This document shows positions 2,763 through 13,469 of a stretch of 48,884 nucleotides of DNA, one piece after another. The notes beneath the pieces were generated by a model. It ran no database searches. It was given only the letters and a program-made list of their open reading frames with translations, and was not told the origin of the DNA. Source of the stretch: Planosporangium mesophilum (GTDB lineage Bacteria > Actinomycetota > Actinomycetes > Mycobacteriales > Micromonosporaceae); NCBI RefSeq assembly GCF_016863255.1, contig NZ_BOON01000037.1, positions 1-48,884 of the forward strand, written 5' to 3'. How positions within the stretch are numbered: position 1 is the first letter of the stretch; each line of letters opens with the position of its first letter. The position numbers and the translations under genes are program-made.

Positions 2763-4202
2763 ATGCGCCTACCCGTACGCACGATCGCCACCGCTGTGCC
2801 GGCCGCCGTCGCGGTCGTACTCCTGACCGCCACCGCCGCACAGGCCAATGTCCCGCTGACTCAGGTCAGCGCCGACCCGTACACCGACGCGCAGGCCCAG
2901 CACCGCACCGAGGTCGAGCCCGACACGTTCAGCTTCGGCAACACCATCGTGTCGGCCTTCCAGGTCGGCCGGGTGTCCGGCGGCGGCGCGTCCAACATCG
3001 GCTTCGCCACGTCCACCGACGGCGGCGCGGCCTGGACCCGGGGCTTCCTGCCCGGGATCACCACCAACGCCGGCGGCCCGTACGCTCAGGCCAGCGATGC
3101 CGCGGTGGCCTACGACGCCCGCCACAACGTATGGCTGATCTCGTCGCTCGCCATCCGCAGCTCCTCCGTGGACGTACTGACCAGCCGCTCCACCGACGGC
3201 GGGCGCACGTGGGGCAACCCTGTGACGACCGCGACCGGATCGCTCGACAAGAACTGGATCGTCTGCGACAACACGCCGACCAGCCCGTTCTACGGCAACT
3301 GCTACACCGAGTACGACATCAGCGGCAGCGGCGACGCGCTGCGGATGAAGACGTCCTCGGACGGCGGCGCCACCTGGGGCCCGGCCCGGGCCACCGGGGA
3401 CAGCGCGACCGGACTCGGCGGCCAGCCCGTCGTCCGTCCGAACGGTACGGTCATCGTGCCGTACCTGTCGCTGGGCGACCAGATCCGCTCGTTCCGCTCG
3501 GTCGACGGCGGCGCGAGCTGGCGCGCCACGGTCCTGGTGGCGAGCATCAGCCACCACGACGTGGCCGGCGGCCTGCGCGAGGAGGCGCTACCCAGCGCCG
3601 AGATCGACGGCGCCGGCACGGTGTACGTGGCCTGGGCCGACTGCCGCTTCCGGTCGGGCTGCCCCAGCAACGACATCGTGGTGGCCCAGTCCACGAGCGA
3701 GACGACGTGGGCGGCGCCGACGCGGGTACCGGTCGACGCCACCACCAGTACCGTCGATCATTTCGCCCCGGGGATCGGGGTTGACCCGTCGTCGTCCGGG
3801 GCGTCGGCGCGCATCGGGTTGACGTACTACTTCTACCCGAGCACCAACTGCAGCGCGTCGACCTGCCAGCTGTCCGTCGGCTTCATCTCGTCCACCAACG
3901 GCGGCACGAGTTGGAGCGCCGCCACCCAGGTCGCCGGACCGATGAGCCTGTCCTGGATACCGAACACCTCGCAGGGCCGCATGTTCGGCGACTACATCTC
4001 CACCTCGGTACGGGCCGGTGGGAGGGCGTACCCGGTCATCCCGGTCGCCAACGCGCCCAGCGGATCGACGTTCGAGCTCGCCATGTACGCGCCGACCGGC
4101 GGGCTCGCCGTCACCGGCGGTACGGCCCGGTCGGCCACCGCAAGGGAGACCACAACGCCGCTCACGGCCGAGTCCCGCCCGGTCGCGCCGACCAGAAACT
4201 GA
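2763..4202 (+). CDS. Secreted Asp-box (BNR) repeat protein, sialidase-like
   Basis: A 479-residue exported protein. The Sec signal peptide is about residues 1-28 (VAVVLLTATAAQA). Asp boxes of the form SxDGGxxW occur at about 84-91, 143-150, 198-205, 246-253 and 377-384, with a degenerate one at 310-316; these mark the blade turns of a six-bladed sialidase-type beta-propeller. A clear FRIP/YRIP arginine motif of true sialidases is not seen, so glycosidase activity is uncertain and the call is structural. A ribosome-binding sequence GAGAGGTGG lies about 8 nt before the ATG. It converges with lanL, 18 nt away, and shows no obvious functional link to it. Confidence 0.8.
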   Translation: MRLPVRTIATAVPAAVAVVLLTATAAQANVPLTQVSADPYTDAQAQHRTEVEPDTFSFGNTIVSAFQVGRVSGGGASNIGFATSTDGGAAWTRGFLPGITTNAGGPYAQASDAAVAYDARHNVWLISSLAIRSSSVDVLTSRSTDGGRTWGNPVTTATGSLDKNWIVCDNTPTSPFYGNCYTEYDISGSGDALRMKTSSDGGATWGPARATGDSATGLGGQPVVRPNGTVIVPYLSLGDQIRSFRSVDGGASWRATVLVASISHHDVAGGLREEALPSAEIDGAGTVYVAWADCRFRSGCPSNDIVVAQSTSETTWAAPTRVPVDATTSTVDHFAPGIGVDPSSSGASARIGLTYYFYPSTNCSASTCQLSVGFISSTNGGTSWSAATQVAGPMSLSWIPNTSQGRMFGDYISTSVRAGGRAYPVIPVANAPSGSTFELAMYAPTGGLAVTGGTARSATARETTTPLTAESRPVAPTRN

Positions 4203-4220
4203 GCTGAGCAACGCACGACG

Positions 4221-6845
4221 TTACCGGCTGGGTCGAGGGGCCCAGTCGGGTAGCGGGACGCCGGCGGTACCGCCGCGACGGGACAGCCGCCGGAAGAAGC
4301 CGAGCGCTCCGGCGACTCCGAACGCCCAGGAGGCGCTGTTGTCGTCCGGAGCGTCGGCGAAGAGCAGCGGGTGCCGGGTCGTACCGCCGCTGCGCGCCAG
4401 CATCTGCGCGCCTGCCTCCGCCGCGGCGTCCCAGTAGCGTTGGTCGCCGTCGTGCAGGGCGAGGTCGATCAGCATGTTCCCGACGCCAGCGGCGCCGCAA
4501 CACACGGCCGGCACACTCACCCGGGGCAGGAAGGCCGTACAGACGTCAGCGAGCTCGCGGGCGAGGCCGGTCAGCCCCGGGTCGTCGAGGACGTCACCCG
4601 CGTACAGCAGGGTCTGGGTGATGCCGGTGAGACCTTGGCACCACGACACCGCCAGCGGGGCCGCGAACCGGGTCCGGGCCCGCTCCGCCAGCGACCGGGC
4701 GCGCCGGGCGAGCAGGTTGGCGCGCTCGGCGCCGCTGGCCAGCAGGTCCCGGTCACCGCTATGGGCACCGACGCAGAGCAGCAGTTCGGTGGTGCCGGCC
4801 AGTCCGTGCGCCCGTCCGGCCGACGGTTCGACGGCCGCCGGCTCCGGCAGCGCGTCGCTCTCGGTCCGCGAGACCGGTGGCGGATGGCCCAGTACGGACT
4901 CGGCGCAGCGCCGGGCCACGGCGAGGTGCGCGGGGTCTCCGGTGGCGCGGTGCAGCAGTACATGGCCGAGCCCGACCCCCGCGGCCCCGGAGATGACGTC
5001 GTCGCTCTCGGGCTTCCAGTCGGCACCCGGGAGGTGGGGGCCGGGGTGGTCCGGGCCGGCGTCGAAGCCGTGTTCCCGGGCCCGCCGCAGGAACACGTCG
5101 ACGCCCGTGCGGCCGACCATCAGGCCGGGCGGCAGGTCGACCTCGGTCATCGCTCGCACCGTGAACGGCAGCAGGTCGCGTAGGCAGTCGGCGACGCCGG
5201 GCCGGTCCAGGTGTTCCAGCAGTTCCAGCCCGACACCGGCGGTTCCGCTGTAGACGCTGGCATCGTGCGCGACCGACCTGCTCGGCGGTGCCGCCAGTAC
5301 CCGCTTGGCCTGTTCGAGCAGGTCCGCCAGCAGATTGTCGGCGATCTCCGCGGCGACCTCGACGGTGAGGCGCGGCGGTGCGGGCAGCGTGTACCTGGTC
5401 GCGGGCGACGTGGACGGGTCGTGCTCGGCCAGCCGACGCGCCGCGTCCCGGGCGAGATCGTCGTCACCGCTGAGCAGGTCGGCGATCGCGCCGATCGCGC
5501 CGGCCGGCTGTTCGCCGTGGCGGCGGCGTATCGTCTGCAGCGCCCGCCGCCGGGGCAGGTCCGGATCCTCGCCCAGCGCCACCGGATGCAGGCCGTGCGC
5601 GGCGAACAGCAGGGTCATGCCCAGCGCGTGCAGGTCGTCGGTGTCGCGGGGCGGCTCGTCACGGCGCTGGCGCGCCGGTGCGTACCCGGGAGTGCCCCCG
5701 GGCACGTGCAGCCCCTCGTAGCGGGCCAGACCGAAGTCGATCAACGTGGCCCGGTCGCCGTCGATGACTACGTTCCGCGTGGTGAGGTCGCGGACGACGA
5801 CGCCACGCGCATGCAGGTCCAGCACGATGCGGGCGAGCTGGCGGCCGAGCCGGTCGAGGTCGTGCGTCCCGCTCGGCGCGTCGGAAGCACCGCCCGGCAC
5901 GTACGGGCCGTCGCGGATGACGTCCTCCTCCAGGGTGTACGGGCCGGCGTCGGTGGTCACGAGGAACTCGTCGGAACCGTGCCGGAAATGGTCGACGAAC
6001 CGCGGCACGCCCGGCACGCCGTCCAGCGCCTGGAGGACCCGGCGCTCGTTGCGCAGCCGCAGCCGTACATCGCCGGCTTCGCCGTGTTCGTCGACGAGCG
6101 CGCGGGCCTGCTTGACCACCACGGTCGCGCCGTTCCGCTCGTCGACGGCGCGGTAGACGTTGCCCCGGCCCGACTCGAAGACCCCGGCGACCAGCCGGTA
6201 GTGGCCGCCGAGCACCACCGGTGGGCTCTCACTCCCGGCCGTGCTCTCAGCCTCCAGGAGGTCGCCCGACTCGCCGGTGAAGGGATCGACGGTCCAGGCC
6301 GGCTGCCGGTACCGCATGGTCGCGAGCGCGCCGAACTCCTCGCCGTTCGGGCCATGGATCAGTGTCACCAGCACGCCTCGGGCGTCGGCGTTCCACGAGC
6401 TGGTGAAGGGCCCGTACCGGTAGTACACCGGGGCGGAGGGGTCCACGGACCGGTCGCTGAGGATCCGGGGCCCCTGCTGACCGCGTAGGAGGTCGGCCAG
6501 CCGCAGTCCCAGGTCGCGCACCCGATCCTGGTCGGGGTAGATGGTGAAGGCCTTGCCCACGGCCTCCGGTGAGCTGTAACCGTTGTTGAGCCGGCTCAGC
6601 ACCCGCTGGGAGCGGGCCAGCTTGAACGCGCACCCCTCCGCCAGCAGCACGGGTACCAGTCGCTCGACAAGCTCGGGGTAGGTCGCCGCCCGCGAGGAGA
6701 CGTGCAGCTTCCAACCCTGCGTCGGCAGCGTCGTCTCCTCGGGGGTGAGGGTCAGCCAGGTCTGGCCGCCGCGCAGCCGGTACCGAAGCCCGACATGCTG
6801 GCGGACGGTGCGTTCGACACGGTCCTCGAAATCGATGTTGTCCAT
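4221..6845 (-). CDS. lanL: Class IV-type lanthipeptide synthetase LanL (lyase-kinase-cyclase)
   Basis: An 874-residue three-domain enzyme that would phosphorylate Ser/Thr in the precursor, eliminate phosphate to give Dha/Dhb, and add Cys thiols to form (methyl)lanthionine rings. The N-terminal lyase region (about 1-190) holds WKLHVSS and YYRYGPF, typical of LanKC/LanL. The kinase (about 215-480) has VVVKQ with Lys245, RDL with Asp353 and DFG at 370-372. The cyclase (about 530-860) keeps AHGLAG (His680), WCQG (Cys736) and CCG (Cys782-Cys783). These zinc ligands are missing from class III LanKC, hence the class IV call. The usual Cys-His pair is Cys-Cys here. The ATG at 6845 is preferred because an in-frame start at 6935 would overlap the precursor gene. 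Confidence 0.9.
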   Translation of the reverse strand: MDNIDFEDRVERTVRQHVGLRYRLRGGQTWLTLTPEETTLPTQGWKLHVSSRAATYPELVERLVPVLLAEGCAFKLARSQRVLSRLNNGYSSPEAVGKAFTIYPDQDRVRDLGLRLADLLRGQQGPRILSDRSVDPSAPVYYRYGPFTSSWNADARGVLVTLIHGPNGEEFGALATMRYRQPAWTVDPFTGESGDLLEAESTAGSESPPVVLGGHYRLVAGVFESGRGNVYRAVDERNGATVVVKQARALVDEHGEAGDVRLRLRNERRVLQALDGVPGVPRFVDHFRHGSDEFLVTTDAGPYTLEEDVIRDGPYVPGGASDAPSGTHDLDRLGRQLARIVLDLHARGVVVRDLTTRNVVIDGDRATLIDFGLARYEGLHVPGGTPGYAPARQRRDEPPRDTDDLHALGMTLLFAAHGLHPVALGEDPDLPRRRALQTIRRRHGEQPAGAIGAIADLLSGDDDLARDAARRLAEHDPSTSPATRYTLPAPPRLTVEVAAEIADNLLADLLEQAKRVLAAPPSRSVAHDASVYSGTAGVGLELLEHLDRPGVADCLRDLLPFTVRAMTEVDLPPGLMVGRTGVDVFLRRAREHGFDAGPDHPGPHLPGADWKPESDDVISGAAGVGLGHVLLHRATGDPAHLAVARRCAESVLGHPPPVSRTESDALPEPAAVEPSAGRAHGLAGTTELLLCVGAHSGDRDLLASGAERANLLARRARSLAERARTRFAAPLAVSWCQGLTGITQTLLYAGDVLDDPGLTGLARELADVCTAFLPRVSVPAVCCGAAGVGNMLIDLALHDGDQRYWDAAAEAGAQMLARSGGTTRHPLLFADAPDDNSASWAFGVAGALGFFRRLSRRGGTAGVPLPDWAPRPSR

Positions 6846-6874
6846 GCCGAACGCCCCCGTGAGTCCGCTAGTTA

Positions 6875-7036
6875 CTACACGTACGAGTTGGTGACGTGCT
6901 CGATCTGCGTGCCGTGGACGCAGCACCCGGTGCACCGGGTGCGCCCCTCCTCGGTGTAGCCGTCACGGAACTCGAGGGTGGGCTCCACGACGTCGGTGCC
7001 CGCTTCGCGGGGCTCCAGCTCCAGCAGTGCGGTCAC
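6875..7036 (-). CDS. lanA: Lanthipeptide precursor (53 aa)
   Basis: A 53-codon gene with a GTG start and the ribosome-binding sequence AAAGGA about 6 nt upstream. It ends 29 nt before lanL on the same strand. The leader starts MTALLELEPREAG; LLELE resembles the LxxLQ-type recognition helix of class III/IV leaders. The Cys-rich end is CTGCCVHGTQIEHVTNSYV, with Cys35, Cys38 and Cys39 and Thr/Ser at 33, 36, 43, 49 and 51. Most dehydratable residues lie after the cysteines, so some rings may run from an N-terminal Cys to a C-terminal Dha/Dhb. The leader cleavage site cannot be read from sequence. No protease or exporter gene is adjacent. Confidence 0.9.
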   Translation of the reverse strand: MTALLELEPREAGTDVVEPTLEFRDGYTEEGRTRCTGCCVHGTQIEHVTNSYV

Positions 7037-7172
7037 AGTTGATCCTTTCCGGCCGGTAGGCCTGGTTCGGAAACGTGGCTTCCGATGCTAGCAACTGATC
7101 GATAATCATCGCTGTCCCGGATTCGGGCAGCAGAACATGAACAGCCGCCCAGGCTTGTCATGACGCCGGAAC

Positions 7173-7232
7173 GACTGGAACCGTGACGGCTGGAACGGTG
7201 ACGACTGGAACCGTGACGACTGGAACGGTGAC
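7173..7232. repeat. 15-bp tandem repeat, four units
   Basis: Four head-to-tail 15-bp units of the form GACTGGAACSGTGAC (one has GGC for GAC). The variable base alternates C, G, C, G, so neighbouring units contain ACCGT and ACGGT, which can pair as small hairpins. It lies between the end of the TetR gene (7264) and the start of lanA (7036), in the leader or promoter region of the lanthipeptide operon. Confidence 0.9.
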
Positions 7233-7263
7233 GGCGATGTCCGCGACGGTGCCCGGCGCGGCC

Positions 7264-7986
7264 TCACTGCCCCAGCAGACCCGAGAGCACCCGCCGGAGG
7301 AGCCGGTCCTCGGCGGCGCTGCGCTTCTGGGCTTCGTCCTGACCGGCCGACGCCGCGCCGGCGGCCGCCATCGCGGTGACGGCCACCGCGAGGTGCCGGT
7401 GCTCACCCTTGGCGAGCACGGTAGCGAGGTACCCGGCGCCGGCCGCCCGCCGCTGCGCGTCGGCCTGCGTCGAGTCGGTGCCGGCGGGCTGGTTGCGGAC
7501 GAAGATGGTGATGACCGCGCCCAGCATGACGATCGCCTCCATCTTGGCCTGCGCCGGAGCGTCCAGGTCGGCCAGGAGCGAGAGCGAGTACTCGAGAACG
7601 TCGAGCGTGCGGGGGCCCGGAATGACCTTGTCCGGAGTGAGGTCGGCCAGCCACCGGTGCCGTTCGTGGATGCCGCGGATCTGGTGACCCAGCCGGATCA
7701 GGTCGTCGAGCCACTCTCCGGTCGCCGGCCGCGAGAGGTCGAACTCGGCGCTCGTCGCGTCGGCCATCAGGTCGATCAGGTCGTCACGGCTGGTGACGTA
7801 GCGGTAGAGGGAGGCCGGGGCGGCTCCGATCTCCGCGGCCACGCGGCGCATCGACACCGCCGCCAGGCCCTCCGCATCGGCGACGGCGACGGCCGCCGCG
7901 GCGATCCGGGCCCGGCTGTACTCCGGCGCCGGTCCCCGCGCGGCGCGCTCCGGTCGCTGCCACACGCTGCCAGCGGGGTGTTTCAC
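7264..7986 (-). CDS. TetR/AcrR-family transcriptional regulator
   Basis: A 240-residue protein from a GTG start with a strong GGAGGAG just upstream. The N-terminal helix-turn-helix is at about residues 20-65 (ARIAAAAVAVADAEGLAAVSMRRVAAEIGAAPASLYRYVTSRDDLID). The rest resembles the TetR_C ligand domain found in TetR-class efflux regulators. It is divergent from atpB, 116 bp away, and its 3' end points into the repeat upstream of lanA, so it could co-transcribe with or regulate either neighbour. A longer upstream frame exists but lacks a ribosome-binding site. The ligand is unknown. Confidence 0.85.
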   Translation of the reverse strand: MKHPAGSVWQRPERAARGPAPEYSRARIAAAAVAVADAEGLAAVSMRRVAAEIGAAPASLYRYVTSRDDLIDLMADATSAEFDLSRPATGEWLDDLIRLGHQIRGIHERHRWLADLTPDKVIPGPRTLDVLEYSLSLLADLDAPAQAKMEAIVMLGAVITIFVRNQPAGTDSTQADAQRRAAGAGYLATVLAKGEHRHLAVAVTAMAAAGAASAGQDEAQKRSAAEDRLLRRVLSGLLGQ

Positions 7987-8012
7987 CGACTCCTCCGAAA
8001 CTCTTTGCGAAC

Positions 8013-8024
8013 ACTGTATCCAGT
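8013..8024. promoter_or_regulatory. Possible TetR operator
   Basis: ACTG-TATC-CAGT is an inverted repeat in the 116-bp gap between the divergent TetR and atpB genes. On the minus strand it covers TACAGT, a fair -10 box for the TetR gene, which fits autorepression. Short arms keep this weak. Confidence 0.3.
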
Positions 8025-8102
8025 ACCGTACGCTCGAACCGCGAACAGTGATTGCAGTTATGGCGACCCGCAGTTCTGGAGACCCCGACGAAAGGTGCCT
8101 CC

Positions 8103-8885
8103 GTGATCCGATCCGCCGCACCCCTCGCCCAGGACCACTGGCCACCCACCGTCCACGAGTTCTTCCCTCCCGGCCTCGGCGGAGGCTCCTGGATTTCCAA
8201 GATCACGGTACTGCTGTGGATCGGCATCGCCGTGGTCATCGTCTTCTTCCTCGTGGCGTACCGGCGCCCGACCATCGTGCCGACGCGCACCCAGTGGATC
8301 GCGGAATCGATCTACGGATTCATCCGCGACGGCGTGGCGCGCGAGGTGATCGGGGCCGAGGGCCTGCGCTTCGCCCCGTACCTGACCTCGCTGTTCTGCT
8401 TCATCGCGATCACCAACATCTTCGGCGTCATCCCGCTGGCGCAGATCTCGCCGAACTCCCACATCGCCTTCCCGGCGCTCCTCGCGATCGTCTCGTACGT
8501 CATGTTCCACTACGTCGGCATCCGCAAGCACGGCTTGCGGAAGTACATCAGACAGAGCCTGATCCTGCCGGGCACGCCGCCGGCGATGTACGGCCTACTG
8601 ATCCCACTGGAGTTCCTGCAGACCTTCATCACGCGGCCGTTCACCCTCGCCCTGCGGCTCTTCGCCAACATGTTCGCCGGCCACCTGATCCTGCTGGTGT
8701 TCACCATGGGCGGTTTCGTGCTGCTCGGCGCGCAGACCGTACTGCTGCGACCGGCGTCCCTGGTCTCGTGGGCACTGGCGATCGGGCTCACGCTGTTCGA
8801 GGCCGGTGTCGCGCTGCTTCAGGCGTACGTGTTCGTCCTGCTGACCGCGAGCTACCTCCAGGGGGCGCTCGCCGAGGAACACTGA
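8103..8885 (+). CDS. atpB: F0F1 ATP synthase subunit a, stand-alone copy
   Basis: A 260-residue membrane protein of usual AtpB length. The GTG start has AAAGG 7 nt upstream. It would form the proton half-channels beside the c-ring. The helix bearing the essential arginine reads LALRLFANMFAGH. The last helix reads ALLQAYVFVLLTASYL, matching the family, so the protein looks intact. Five to six hydrophobic segments are visible. None of the other atp genes (E, F, H, A, G, D, C) flank it: a divergent TetR gene is on the left and a convergent secreted esterase on the right. It is therefore an orphan, probably a second copy beside a normal atp operon elsewhere (inference). Confidence 0.9.
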   Translation: MIRSAAPLAQDHWPPTVHEFFPPGLGGGSWISKITVLLWIGIAVVIVFFLVAYRRPTIVPTRTQWIAESIYGFIRDGVAREVIGAEGLRFAPYLTSLFCFIAITNIFGVIPLAQISPNSHIAFPALLAIVSYVMFHYVGIRKHGLRKYIRQSLILPGTPPAMYGLLIPLEFLQTFITRPFTLALRLFANMFAGHLILLVFTMGGFVLLGAQTVLLRPASLVSWALAIGLTLFEAGVALLQAYVFVLLTASYLQGALAEEH

Positions 8886-8905: not shown

Positions 8906-9859
8906 CTACTGCAGGCCCCAGAACTGTCCCATGTGGAGCGCCGCGCACACCCCCACGTTGTGGGCGTACGTCCCGACGCGGCCGCACTGCTCCGCCGTCG
9001 GCGCGACCGGCTGGCCGTGCGACATCCCGGCGATCTGGTAGGTCTCCACCACCGCGCGACCGGAGCCGTCGGTGTACACCCGGTGCGGGTACCCGCCGAC
9101 CGTGTTGGACACGTCCGGCGTCTGGTCCGCGCCGTTCACGTTGGTCCACTGCTCCATCAGCTCGGTCATGTTGGCCGGTGCGACGGTCAGGTCGTTCGTA
9201 CCGTGCCACAGCGAGAGGCGCGGCCACGGCCCGCGGTACGTCGACGCGCCCCGCACCAGGTCACCCCAGGACTGCGCCGACCGGTCCAGGCCCGGGCTCA
9301 TGCAGCCGTACGACTGGGCAAGGTAGGTCGCGCACCGGAACGGGATACCGGCGACCACCCCGCCGGCGGCGAAGACGTCCGGGTACGTGGCGAGCATGAC
9401 GGCGGCCATCGCGCCGCCCGCGGACAGCCCGGTGGCGTACACCCGCCGGGCGTCACCGCGGTACTCGGTGAGCATCCGGTCGACCATCTGCTTGACCGAC
9501 AGCGCCTCGCCCCAGCCCCGGCTTGCCTGCGTCGAGTCGTACCAGCCGAAGCAGCCGCCGAACGGCTTCTGCGGCAGCAGCAGCGCGAAGCGCCACCGGT
9601 CGGCCAGCTGCAGCCAGCCGCTCTCGTCACCGAACTGGCCGGCACTCTGGGTGCAGCCGTGCATCGCCACGACCAGCGGCGCCCCGGCAGGTAGGCCGGC
9701 CGGCGCGTACCGGAACATCTGCAGGCCGCCGGGGTTGGAGCCGAAGCCGGTCTCCTGGGTCGGGGTGCCGGCGTAGGACGGTTGGGCGGTGGCGGTCAGG
9801 GTGGCCGCCACCGCGAGCGCGGCGGCGAAGACCCAGCCGAGGAGACGACGTCGCAGCAT
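8906..9859 (-). CDS. Secreted PHB-depolymerase-family esterase (alpha/beta hydrolase)
   Basis: A 317-residue exported esterase. GGGAGG precedes the ATG by 7 nt. The signal peptide is about residues 1-31 (LLGWVFAAALAVAATLTATAQPSYA). The body has the oxyanion region VVAMHGCTQ, nucleophile motif GLSAGG, a probable acid in WHGTNDLTV and the catalytic His in GMSHGQPV. Cysteines in GGCFGW, FRCA, YGCM and GVCA are probably disulfide-bonded. The family includes extracellular poly(3-hydroxybutyrate) depolymerases and feruloyl/acetylxylan esterases, so the polymer cleaved is not certain. A 3-hydroxybutyrate dehydrogenase and a liv-type importer lie downstream on the map. Confidence 0.85.
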   Translation of the reverse strand: MLRRRLLGWVFAAALAVAATLTATAQPSYAGTPTQETGFGSNPGGLQMFRYAPAGLPAGAPLVVAMHGCTQSAGQFGDESGWLQLADRWRFALLLPQKPFGGCFGWYDSTQASRGWGEALSVKQMVDRMLTEYRGDARRVYATGLSAGGAMAAVMLATYPDVFAAGGVVAGIPFRCATYLAQSYGCMSPGLDRSAQSWGDLVRGASTYRGPWPRLSLWHGTNDLTVAPANMTELMEQWTNVNGADQTPDVSNTVGGYPHRVYTDGSGRAVVETYQIAGMSHGQPVAPTAEQCGRVGTYAHNVGVCAALHMGQFWGLQ

Positions 9860-11581: not shown

Positions 11582-12609
11582 GTCGCGCGCCTCCAGTGTC
11601 GACTCAGGCCGGCGAGGTGTTGACTCAGGCCCGCAAGGCCGCCGGGCAGGAAGTAGACCACGACCATGAACAGCACGCCAAGGATGAACTGCGGCTGCTC
11701 CAGCGGCAGCCGTACCGCCGCCGGCAGGCCCGCGACCGCGTCCGACCCGGCGAGGGCGGCCAGCCGCTGGTCGAGGTAGGTGTAGAGCACACCGCCGAGC
11801 AGCGCGCCCCAGCGGGTACCGGCGCCGCCGAGCACCGTCATCACCAGCAGCCCCACCGTGAACGCCGAGGTGGTGATCTGCGGGTTGGAGCCGCCGAGCA
11901 GCAGTAGGTGGACGACACCGCCGAGGGTGGCCAGGAACGCCGACAGCACGTACGACAGCAGGCGGAACCGGTACGGCGACAGGCCCAGGACGGTGACCCG
12001 CCGCTCGTTGTCGCCGATCGCCCGCCACACCCGGCCCGGCTCGGACTCCACCGACCAGCGCACCACGAGCACCACGAGCACCAGGTACGCCAGCGCCAGC
12101 CAGTACAGCCGGAAGGTGTTGGCCACCCCGGCGAAGATCTCCGGAGTGTCCGAAAGGGACAACCCCTCCTCACCGCCGGTGATCCGCGCGCTCATCACCA
12201 GGATCGAGCCGACCTGCGCGAAGGCGAGGGTGACCATCGCGAACGCGATCCCCCGTACCCGCAGCGCGACCGCGCCGAGCAGCACCGGCAGCAGCAGGCC
12301 GACGCCCGCCGTCGCGATGAGCGCCGGCCCCCAGCCCCAGTGCAGCTTCGTCACCACGATGTTCGCGGTGTAACTGCCGGCCGCCACGTACAGGGCATGG
12401 CCGAACGAGAGCAGCCCGGTGTGGCCGAACAACAGGTCGTAGGTGACGGCGAAGCCGGCGAACAGCAGGCAGATCGCGATCAGTTGCAGCGAGCCCGGCC
12501 GGTTGAGGACGTCGGGCAGCACACCGGGCACGGGTATCTGCAGGTACGGCACGCAGACCAGCGCGGCGAGGGCGGCCAGCGGCCACCAGCGCTTCACAAT
12601 CGCCGTCAT
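11578..12609 (-). CDS. livM: Branched-chain-type ABC transporter permease LivM
   Basis: A 343-residue permease with about nine to ten membrane segments. The family core is visible in FGHTGLLSFGHALYVAAGSYTAN and in RVWRAIGDNERRVTVLGLSPYRFRLLSYVLSAFLATLGGV, the EAA-like loop of LivM. The ATG overlaps the livH stop (ATGA). It forms the importer pore with LivH. Substrates of this family extend beyond Leu/Ile/Val to amides, urea, aromatic acids and hydroxyacids. Confidence 0.93.
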   Translation of the reverse strand: MTAIVKRWWPLAALAALVCVPYLQIPVPGVLPDVLNRPGSLQLIAICLLFAGFAVTYDLLFGHTGLLSFGHALYVAAGSYTANIVVTKLHWGWGPALIATAGVGLLLPVLLGAVALRVRGIAFAMVTLAFAQVGSILVMSARITGGEEGLSLSDTPEIFAGVANTFRLYWLALAYLVLVVLVVRWSVESEPGRVWRAIGDNERRVTVLGLSPYRFRLLSYVLSAFLATLGGVVHLLLLGGSNPQITTSAFTVGLLVMTVLGGAGTRWGALLGGVLYTYLDQRLAALAGSDAVAGLPAAVRLPLEQPQFILGVLFMVVVYFLPGGLAGLSQHLAGLSRHWRRAT

Positions 12610-13469
12610 GTGGCCGTCCTCCCGGTGAGGCCGCCCGGGCGTACCAGCAGGACCACGGCGAGCAGCAGCACCACCGAGGCCTCCCCGACACCGGCGGCGG
12701 CGTAGTAGTTGGCGAACTGCTGGACCAGGCCGACCAGCACGGCGGCGAGCGCGCAGCCGGTGAGCGAGCCCATGCCGCCGATCACCACGACGATGAACGC
12801 GAAGATGAGCAGCGAGCCGCCGAGCCCGGGGGTGATGCTGCCGAAGTACGTGGCGGCAAGGGCCCCGGCGAGCGCCGCGGCCGCCCCGCCGATCGCGAAG
12901 ACCACAGTGAACGCCTTGCGGACGTCGATGCCGAGCGCGGTGACCATCGCCCGGTCCTCCACACCGGCCCGCACGATGAGCCCGTACCGGGTGCGCCGCA
13001 GGAACAGCAGGAGCGCCGCGAACACCGCCACGGCCGCGCCGATGAGCAGGAACCGGTCGTTGGGTACGGCCGCGCCGAGCACCCGCGTCGTGGTGGCCGT
13101 CCAGCCCGGCTTGGTGAACGTCAGCGGGTCGGCGCCCCAGCCGGCCTGCAGCAGCGCCACCCCGGCGGCCGAGAGTCCGACGGTGACCAGCACCTGCTGG
13201 ATCGGCCGGGCGTACAGCGGCCGAATGAGCGCCAGCTCGACCGCGACCGCCAGGATGGTGCCGGCGAGCACCCCGACCGCGACCGCGACTCCGAACGGCG
13301 CGTACGTGGCGGCCCACCACGTCGCGTACGCGCCGACGCCCAGGAACAGTCCGTGGGCGAAGTTGAGCACGTCGGCCAGGCCGAAGATGAGCGACAGCCC
13401 GGAGGCGATGAGGAAGTACAGCGCGCCGAGCCCGAGCCCGGTCAGCGTCAACAGGACCAGCGTGCTCAA
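12606..13469 (-). CDS. livH: Branched-chain-type ABC transporter permease LivH
   Basis: A 287-residue permease. GLGLGALYFLIASGLSLIFG and VLNFAHGLFLGVGAYATW are the hallmark N-terminal segments of LivH. The C-terminal VVVIGGMGSLTGCALAAVLVGLVQQ is also typical. The start is TTG, overlapping the livF stop in TTGA. It pairs with LivM. Confidence 0.93.
   Translation of the reverse strand: MSTLVLLTLTGLGLGALYFLIASGLSLIFGLADVLNFAHGLFLGVGAYATWWAATYAPFGVAVAVGVLAGTILAVAVELALIRPLYARPIQQVLVTVGLSAAGVALLQAGWGADPLTFTKPGWTATTTRVLGAAVPNDRFLLIGAAVAVFAALLLFLRRTRYGLIVRAGVEDRAMVTALGIDVRKAFTVVFAIGGAAAALAGALAATYFGSITPGLGGSLLIFAFIVVVIGGMGSLTGCALAAVLVGLVQQFANYYAAAGVGEASVVLLLAVVLLVRPGGLTGRTAT

Follow-up and report, generated by a model that had tools for sequence, protein, structure and literature searches.

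We analysed a 48,884-nucleotide stretch of Planosporangium mesophilum DNA (NZ_BOON01000037.1; hereafter the window), which makes up contig C37 in full, one of the 103 contigs of a 6.62-Mb genome, and found that it carries what is very probably a genuine class IV lanthipeptide locus, minimal and seemingly intact: lanL, encoding the lanthionine synthetase, and lanA, encoding its 53-residue precursor. We put the probability of this reading at roughly 0.93. For the full statement, in which the product also bears three reverse (methyl)lanthionine rings, we consider the odds to be somewhat better than even.

The lanL gene (4221-6845, reverse strand) starts at an ATG and encodes 874 residues, in which RamC_N-type lyase, kinase and LanC domains (RamC_N, Pkinase and LANC_like) all score above their cut-offs, three domains in one protein. 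LanL scores above the cut-off of the class IV model NF038150 (656.1 bits; cut-off 650) and well below that of the class III model (336 bits; cut-off 575). Alignment places the expected residue at 13 of 13 catalytic or ligand columns; K46, H48, K75, K98, G228, K245, D353, N358, D370 and H680 are all present and, we assume, have their usual roles. H680, the predicted cyclase histidine (4806-4808, reverse strand), is what we take to be the counterpart of the catalytic histidine of NisC. A zinc-binding LanC triad, a feature absent from class III, is likewise present by alignment: C736 in a WCQG motif (4638-4640, reverse strand) is the first predicted ligand and C782-C783 in a CCG motif (4497-4502, reverse strand) are the other two, giving a predicted zinc site whose third ligand is Cys rather than His. 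Over residues 23-855, LanL matches the solved chain 8car_A (429.8 bits), which has FCQG and CCG motifs too; we found no paper describing this chain. Among the first loci collected, the best BLAST relative of LanL is locus L037 (62.6% identity); six more share 43-47%, and the rest, canonical class IV enzymes included, about 30%. A longer lanL start at 6935, inside lanA, was rejected because homology with L037 begins at the ATG at 6845.

The genome set used here included four genomes of the genus, the window's own among them, and 354 of the family. A profile of the first eight LanLs (A1) set a clade apart from all other matches, its lowest member scoring 553.6 bits and the highest outsider 363.4. 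After five duplicates (L032 and L046-L049) were dropped, this clade comprised at least 84 distinct loci, 19 further matches (6 in the family of genome G755, 13 in that of G852) standing outside our counts. Each predicted zinc ligand position is Cys in 83 of the 84 LanLs, whereas most of the 31 LanL/LanKC-type proteins taken from outside it have His as their third ligand (26), with Cys in 2 and another residue in 3. These alignments place LanL in an actinobacterial clade whose predicted zinc triad is Cys-Cys-Cys in place of Cys-Cys-His. CCG is found as well in two LanLs outside the clade, L023 and L026; class IV may thus have acquired a third-ligand Cys on more than one occasion.

In overlapping genome samples, A1 at E ≤ 1e-180 matched 9 of 397 genomes of an even sample of the order and 6 of 394 of the class, both counts including the window genome; at E ≤ 1e-150 it matched 36 of 200, 38 of 298 and 11 of 249 genomes in the families of G755, G852 and G657, respectively. 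Within the genus, LanL as query found a match at E ≤ 1e-60 only in the window's own genome (1 of 4). A single-sequence scan of genome contigs gave no more than a 25%-identical match in the kinase region (L006). The window's own genome encodes a second synthetase-like protein (L002; G000:C32:147092-148351, a 918-residue open frame), 31% identical over query residues 28-457; the zinc motifs, which we searched for in it, are absent, and it is probably class III-like.

The lanA gene (6875-7036, reverse strand; stop codon 6875-6877) lies upstream of lanL across a 29-nt gap (6846-6874) and encodes VTALLELEPREAGTDVVEPTLEFRDGYTEEGRTRCTGCCVHGTQIEHVTNSYV from a GTG start. A Shine-Dalgarno-like sequence, GGAAAGGA (7043-7050, reverse strand), stands 6 nt ahead of the GTG, the start is consistent with those of relatives (for example MTALLELAPRDAG in L034), and the G+C content by codon position, 0.67/0.46/0.94, is the coding pattern of this GC-rich contig. 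The first-pass annotation of this DNA had proposed a class IV LanL with an adjacent precursor, the latter a GTG-started 53-codon gene 29 nt before lanL whose end has three Cys; the pairing was right, and the coordinates, start, gap, Cys count and quoted C terminus were all exact.

Three results rule out that lanA is a chance open reading frame. A profile built from 78 clade precursors, with the window and its nearest relative L037 omitted so that there was no circularity, picked the lanA frame at E = 3e-12, while the second best among 680 frames had E = 0.42. When LanA is aligned with the L037 precursor, 24 of 53 aligned residues are identical, a value matched by none of 20,000 shuffles. Finally, the clade precursor profile was run on a control set, the 359 frames that precede 32 LanL/LanKC genes from outside the clade, and gave nothing below E = 0.049. 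We found no other such precursor in the genome, which is 98.55% complete: among the 150 of 264 candidates scored, the other matches had E of at least 1.05. By the counts given in Walker et al. (PMC7268733), 86% of 401 class IV precursors were unannotated, and 83% of precursors of this class stood alone in their cluster, so an unannotated class IV precursor is the usual case.

The predicted leader comprises residues 1-34 (6935-7036, reverse strand), its end being tentative, and contains the motif LEPREAGTDVVEPTLEF (residues 7-23; 6968-7018). In an alignment of 21 precursors (A2), R10 and C35 are invariant, and G13 and F23 occur in at least 90% of sequences. With an iterated profile, 79 of the 84 loci in the clade proved to have a leader-homologous frame upstream of LanL; adding the L071 and L091 precursors by eye gave 82 precursors at 81 loci, L051 having two. 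No precursor was found upstream of L090, L098 or L125, the upstream sequence of L090 being only 614 nt long. The leader is divergent in places, and L112 lacks the PRxAG motif. A Kitasatospora member, WP_331741511.1, is annotated by NCBI as SflA family, and the SflA-family model NF038148 (cut-off 25 bits) matches 6 of the 21 A2 precursors (97.2 bits for L057, 26.9 for L053); LanA has no match to it at E ≤ 10 and falls short of its family score. Leader homology beside a same-clade LanL was nonetheless found by the leave-out profile, which includes NF038148-type members (E = 3e-12), and the LanL tree agrees. Since the leader is homologous and NF038148 does not match, LanA is a member of a wider leader family, outside the curated SflA family.

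These results bear on what the first-pass annotation had suggested for the precursor. Both halves of its guess, 'SflA-like or new', hold: the leader is homologous to NCBI SflA-family precursors, and the core type recurs at just one other of the 81 loci. The model search that it had proposed left LanA unmatched by the SflA-family model, the leader homology emerging through the clade profile. The outcome it had named as counting against itself, that no homologous peptide stands beside other LanL genes, did not occur, as 81 of 84 clade loci have one.

The ring prediction turns on the core. The predicted core, C35-V53 (6878-6934, reverse strand), has 19 residues, CTGCCVHGTQIEHVTNSYV, and that of L037 is CAGCCKQSTRIDIATHSVTQ; the two have in common Cys at positions 1, 4 and 5 and Thr, Thr and Ser at positions 9, 15 and 17 (C35, C38, C39, T43, T49 and S51). 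The cores are identical at 8 of 19 positions, matched by 4 of 20,000 shuffles. T28, T33 and T36 of the window are not kept in L037, where T36 is Ala and T33 is Met, and every Ser/Thr past Phe23 in L037 sits after the last Cys. With no Ser/Thr between Phe23 and the last Cys, any thioether that L037 forms with a core Ser/Thr would have to be reverse. Because the shared T43, T49 and S51 lie C-terminal to all three Cys, and because the pattern is conserved with L037, the window rings would most likely be reverse as well, with Cys N-terminal and dehydroalanine (Dha) or dehydrobutyrine (Dhb) C-terminal. Six pairings are possible for three Cys with three acceptors, and the sequence alone leaves that choice undecided.

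This core pattern, CxGCC...T...T.S, occurs in the window and at one other locus, L037, among the 81 loci with a precursor. When the 82 precursors were sorted at their first Cys, with core boundaries set by a crude rule, 33 had C-x-x-[S/T]-C (19 of these forming one near-identical group), 2 had C-x-x-C-C (window and L037), 2 had Cys-free cores (L091 and L093) and 45 had other arrangements. The core, unmatched by the curated models searched, seems to be of a new type; gene pairs of this kind are already known. In the NF038148-type branch, a reverse bridge is also likely, since those cores start with Cys before the core Thr.

Several observations weigh against our reading, in its account of the locus or of the rings. 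LanL exceeds its model cut-off narrowly (656 against 650 bits), LanA has no match among NCBIfam and Pfam models, and a scan of the locus for consensus promoters and terminators found none. The scan took in 15 window proteins, LanL, LanA and 13 neighbours: no LanT-like exporter was found among the neighbours, and no dedicated leader peptidase linked to the pair among the scanned proteins. The core pattern is known from two loci only, and its conservation is modest, given that the window and L037 precursors differ by 28 nonsynonymous against 10 synonymous codon changes. The extra Thr residues near the window core (T28, T33 and T36) would permit forward rings; indeed, of the 80 clade precursors with Cys, 77 have Ser/Thr between their first and last Cys, and the window precursor is one of them by virtue of T36. 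These last two points suit a variant of the same system with mixed ring direction, in which T36 (or T33) would be dehydrated and bridged forward to C39 or C38 while the remaining Cys are bridged backward. T36 lies inside CTGCC at ring-forming distance from C39. We nevertheless regard this variant as possible but rather unlikely: L037, with Ala and Met at the two positions, keeps the three Cys and the spacing of T43, T49 and S51.

A different departure is suggested by the nearest sister loci. In a FastTree tree of 83 clade rows and 7 outgroup rows, from which L125 with its degenerate triad was left out and in which long branches were flagged, the window and L037 group together (local support 96) and adjoin L091 and L093 (99). 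These two loci (L091, G1272:C20:20248-22803; L093, G1441:C82:259995-262559) have leader-homologous precursors that are Cys-free in leader motif and core, with DSTW motifs in the core (four in L091, one in L093), and their LanLs have Arg for the conserved LanC His with the dehydratase residues intact. That His is changed in 3 of 84 clade LanLs: L091, L093 and the degenerate L125. L091 and L093 may represent a class IV system that dehydrates without cyclizing, its substrate and cyclase having changed in concert; a literature search, covering titles only, returned no title on Cys-free class IV precursors. By analogy the window peptide might be dehydrated without full cyclization, yielding a dehydropeptide with free thiols or one or two rings, but this seems improbable, as the window LanL keeps H680 and the three ligand Cys, and the core has three Cys in common with that of L037. 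It is very unlikely that the true LanL substrate is another peptide and the 53-residue frame a relic: class II enzymes with the CCC triad also modify peptides encoded elsewhere in the genome (PMC11251773), but lanA was the single significant precursor-like match among the genome's scored candidates, shares its frame, start, leader and Cys with relatives, and has a good ribosome-binding site.

The computations show the gene pair, its homology, the intact active-site residues, the core pattern in common with L037 and the accessory segment; from there on, for a class IV locus making reverse rings, we infer the following course. LanA would be made with a leader of about 34 residues, whose LxLEPRxAG...EP...F motif would dock it to LanL. 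There, the lyase and kinase domains would phosphorylate core Ser/Thr and eliminate the phosphate to give Dha/Dhb, and the LanC domain, through its three-Cys zinc site and His680, would add C35, C38 and C39 to these to form three (methyl)lanthionines, the bridges being reverse. A peptidase whose gene lies elsewhere, most obviously an M1 peptidase, would then take off the leader, and the product would be exported by a transporter; the neighbouring tetR gene may control the pair. The genome has three Peptidase_M1 matches, one of which may supply the leader peptidase; M1 peptidases are common, being present in 8 of 14 control genomes. According to reviews, what removes the SflA leader is an AplP-like peptidase whose gene stands outside the cluster (PMC10885120, PMC8358304), so a class IV pair without a linked peptidase is not odd.

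The first-pass annotation had stated that no exporter, protease or other tailoring gene lies nearby. This holds for a LanT-like exporter across the 15 scanned proteins and needs a caveat for proteases: the product of a reverse-strand gene at 8906-9859, best called as Esterase_PHB (93.5 bits), also matches Peptidase_S9 (32.6 bits; Pfam cut-off 22.6). We set this gene aside as a maturation gene since it lies outside the accessory segment described below and also occurs in congener G002, which lacks the pair; a branched-chain amino-acid permease gene (12606-13370, reverse strand), also outside the segment, was set aside as an exporter. In the L037 neighbourhood, an ATP-binding cassette (ABC) transporter gene (L135:6405-8432, 675 residues) converges on lanL; it is a candidate exporter and has no counterpart among the scanned window proteins.

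The genes lanL, lanA and tetR, all on one strand, lie in an accessory segment of about 3.9 kb (4137-8089, borders approximate) that the three congeners compared lack at this position. In the window, the two flanking genes, one left of lanL and the other, atpB-like, right of tetR, stand about 3.97 kb apart; in G003 this distance is 158 nt. G002 lacks the segment at the site and also the atpB-like gene, and G001 lacks the segment plus the gene left of it. The segment was therefore gained here or lost in the others. No 8-mer, direct or inverted, was found to be shared between the two junction zones. Within the segment, upstream of lanA, the TetR-family gene (7264-7989, reverse strand, being the part scanned; its longest frame starts at 8145) matches PF00440 and PF02909 above cut-off, and its product possibly regulates the pair. 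A scan of 10 neighbour proteins from four relatives found no TetR protein: upstream of lanA there is a DUF2252 gene in L037, and L091 and L093 have LysR genes. The atpB-like gene (F0F1 ATP synthase subunit A; 8103-8885) adjoins the segment, and a second copy with 77% DNA identity lies at G000:C3:28532-29266.

The CCC-triad class IV branch would gain in LanA a natural substrate whose sequence all but fixes the direction of its rings (and, in L037, fixes it fully); a single co-expression experiment can therefore tell whether cyclases of this type make reverse thioethers throughout. With one leader family and diverse cores, cinnamycin-like and Cys-free ones among them, the 84-locus clade is a test set for the ring-pattern tolerance of one enzyme family. 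Systems of this kind are known; the prediction of reverse rings can be tested and is of moderate interest.

Among known systems, the class IV lanthipeptide SflA, reportedly described by Ren et al. in 2020, is a natural point of comparison. The window system is likewise class IV, its LanL clade includes loci with NCBI SflA-family precursors, and the leaders are homologous; the SflA leader peptidase is reported outside its cluster (PMC10885120, PMC8358304), and none was found linked to the window pair. In contrast, SflA-model cores are ACLADPWVTATTRFACD-like with two Cys, whereas the window core has CxGCC with no later Cys and its precursor is not matched by NF038148. The SflA cleavage motif is PDLLK (PMC10885120); it was not seen in the clade precursors listed, and the link of the clade to the studied SflA rests on the NCBI model name. 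Much closer is L037 (genome G146, same family), with its 62.6%-identical LanL and the same CxGCC...T...T.S core; it differs in having Ala for T36 and, as neighbours, the ABC transporter gene converging on lanL and a methyltransferase gene beyond.

Lyase-type synthetases with a CCC triad have already been counted as 'L-CCC', with 8 predicted peptides (PMC11251773). They share with the window LanL a lyase/kinase dehydratase and a three-Cys zinc triad, but we saw no description of the window core type there. Venezuelin-type class IV enzymes (VenL, SgbL) have the same three-domain LanL (PMC12328550); they differ, to judge from non-clade proteins rather than from VenL and SgbL themselves, in that the third ligand is His in 26 of 31 and the 32 non-clade loci lack the clade leader.

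The core spacing also recalls a class II product. Cinnamycin and duramycin come from a class II LanM system with a different leader, and the cinnamycin bridges run 1-18, 4-14 and 5-11. Like theirs, the window core has 19 residues counted from Cys and carries Cys or Ser/Thr close to positions 1, 4 and 5 and to its C-terminal end; unlike in cinnamycin, position 4 is Cys, not Ser, and LanA has no match to the cinnamycin family model NF033431, falling short of its family score. Cinnamycin itself has 19 residues, Asp15 and a 6-19 lysinoalanine (PMC6974636).

Elsewhere in the clade, the L058, L059, L116 and L117 precursors combine the clade's leader with cinnamycin-like ends, CIRTCISGWTIRCDGATF or similar (pattern C..[TP]C.SG[WF]TIRCDG), and looser versions occur in L111 and L124. 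L058 and L059, the only two of the group scanned, score 30.4 and 29.4 bits against NF033431, below its cut-off of 35. These L058-type loci appear to join a core of class II type to a class IV system, a combination for which we found no description in the literature searched, including portions of PMC12328550, PMC12837462 and PMC6974636, and we make no claim of its absence elsewhere.

Relative to a C-x-x-[T/S]-C start, one may speculate that in the window core the position 4 acceptor became Cys, the downstream Cys were lost and a Thr lies near the place of cinnamycin Cys14, so that the partners of the middle bridge are swapped. On a comparison of spacing alone, the window core could then take a nested, cinnamycin-like arrangement with donor and acceptor exchanged at the middle bridge; as a tentative proposal on which we would not bet, all three thioethers would run backwards, C39-T43, C38-T49 and C35-S51 (core 5-9, 4-15 and 1-17).

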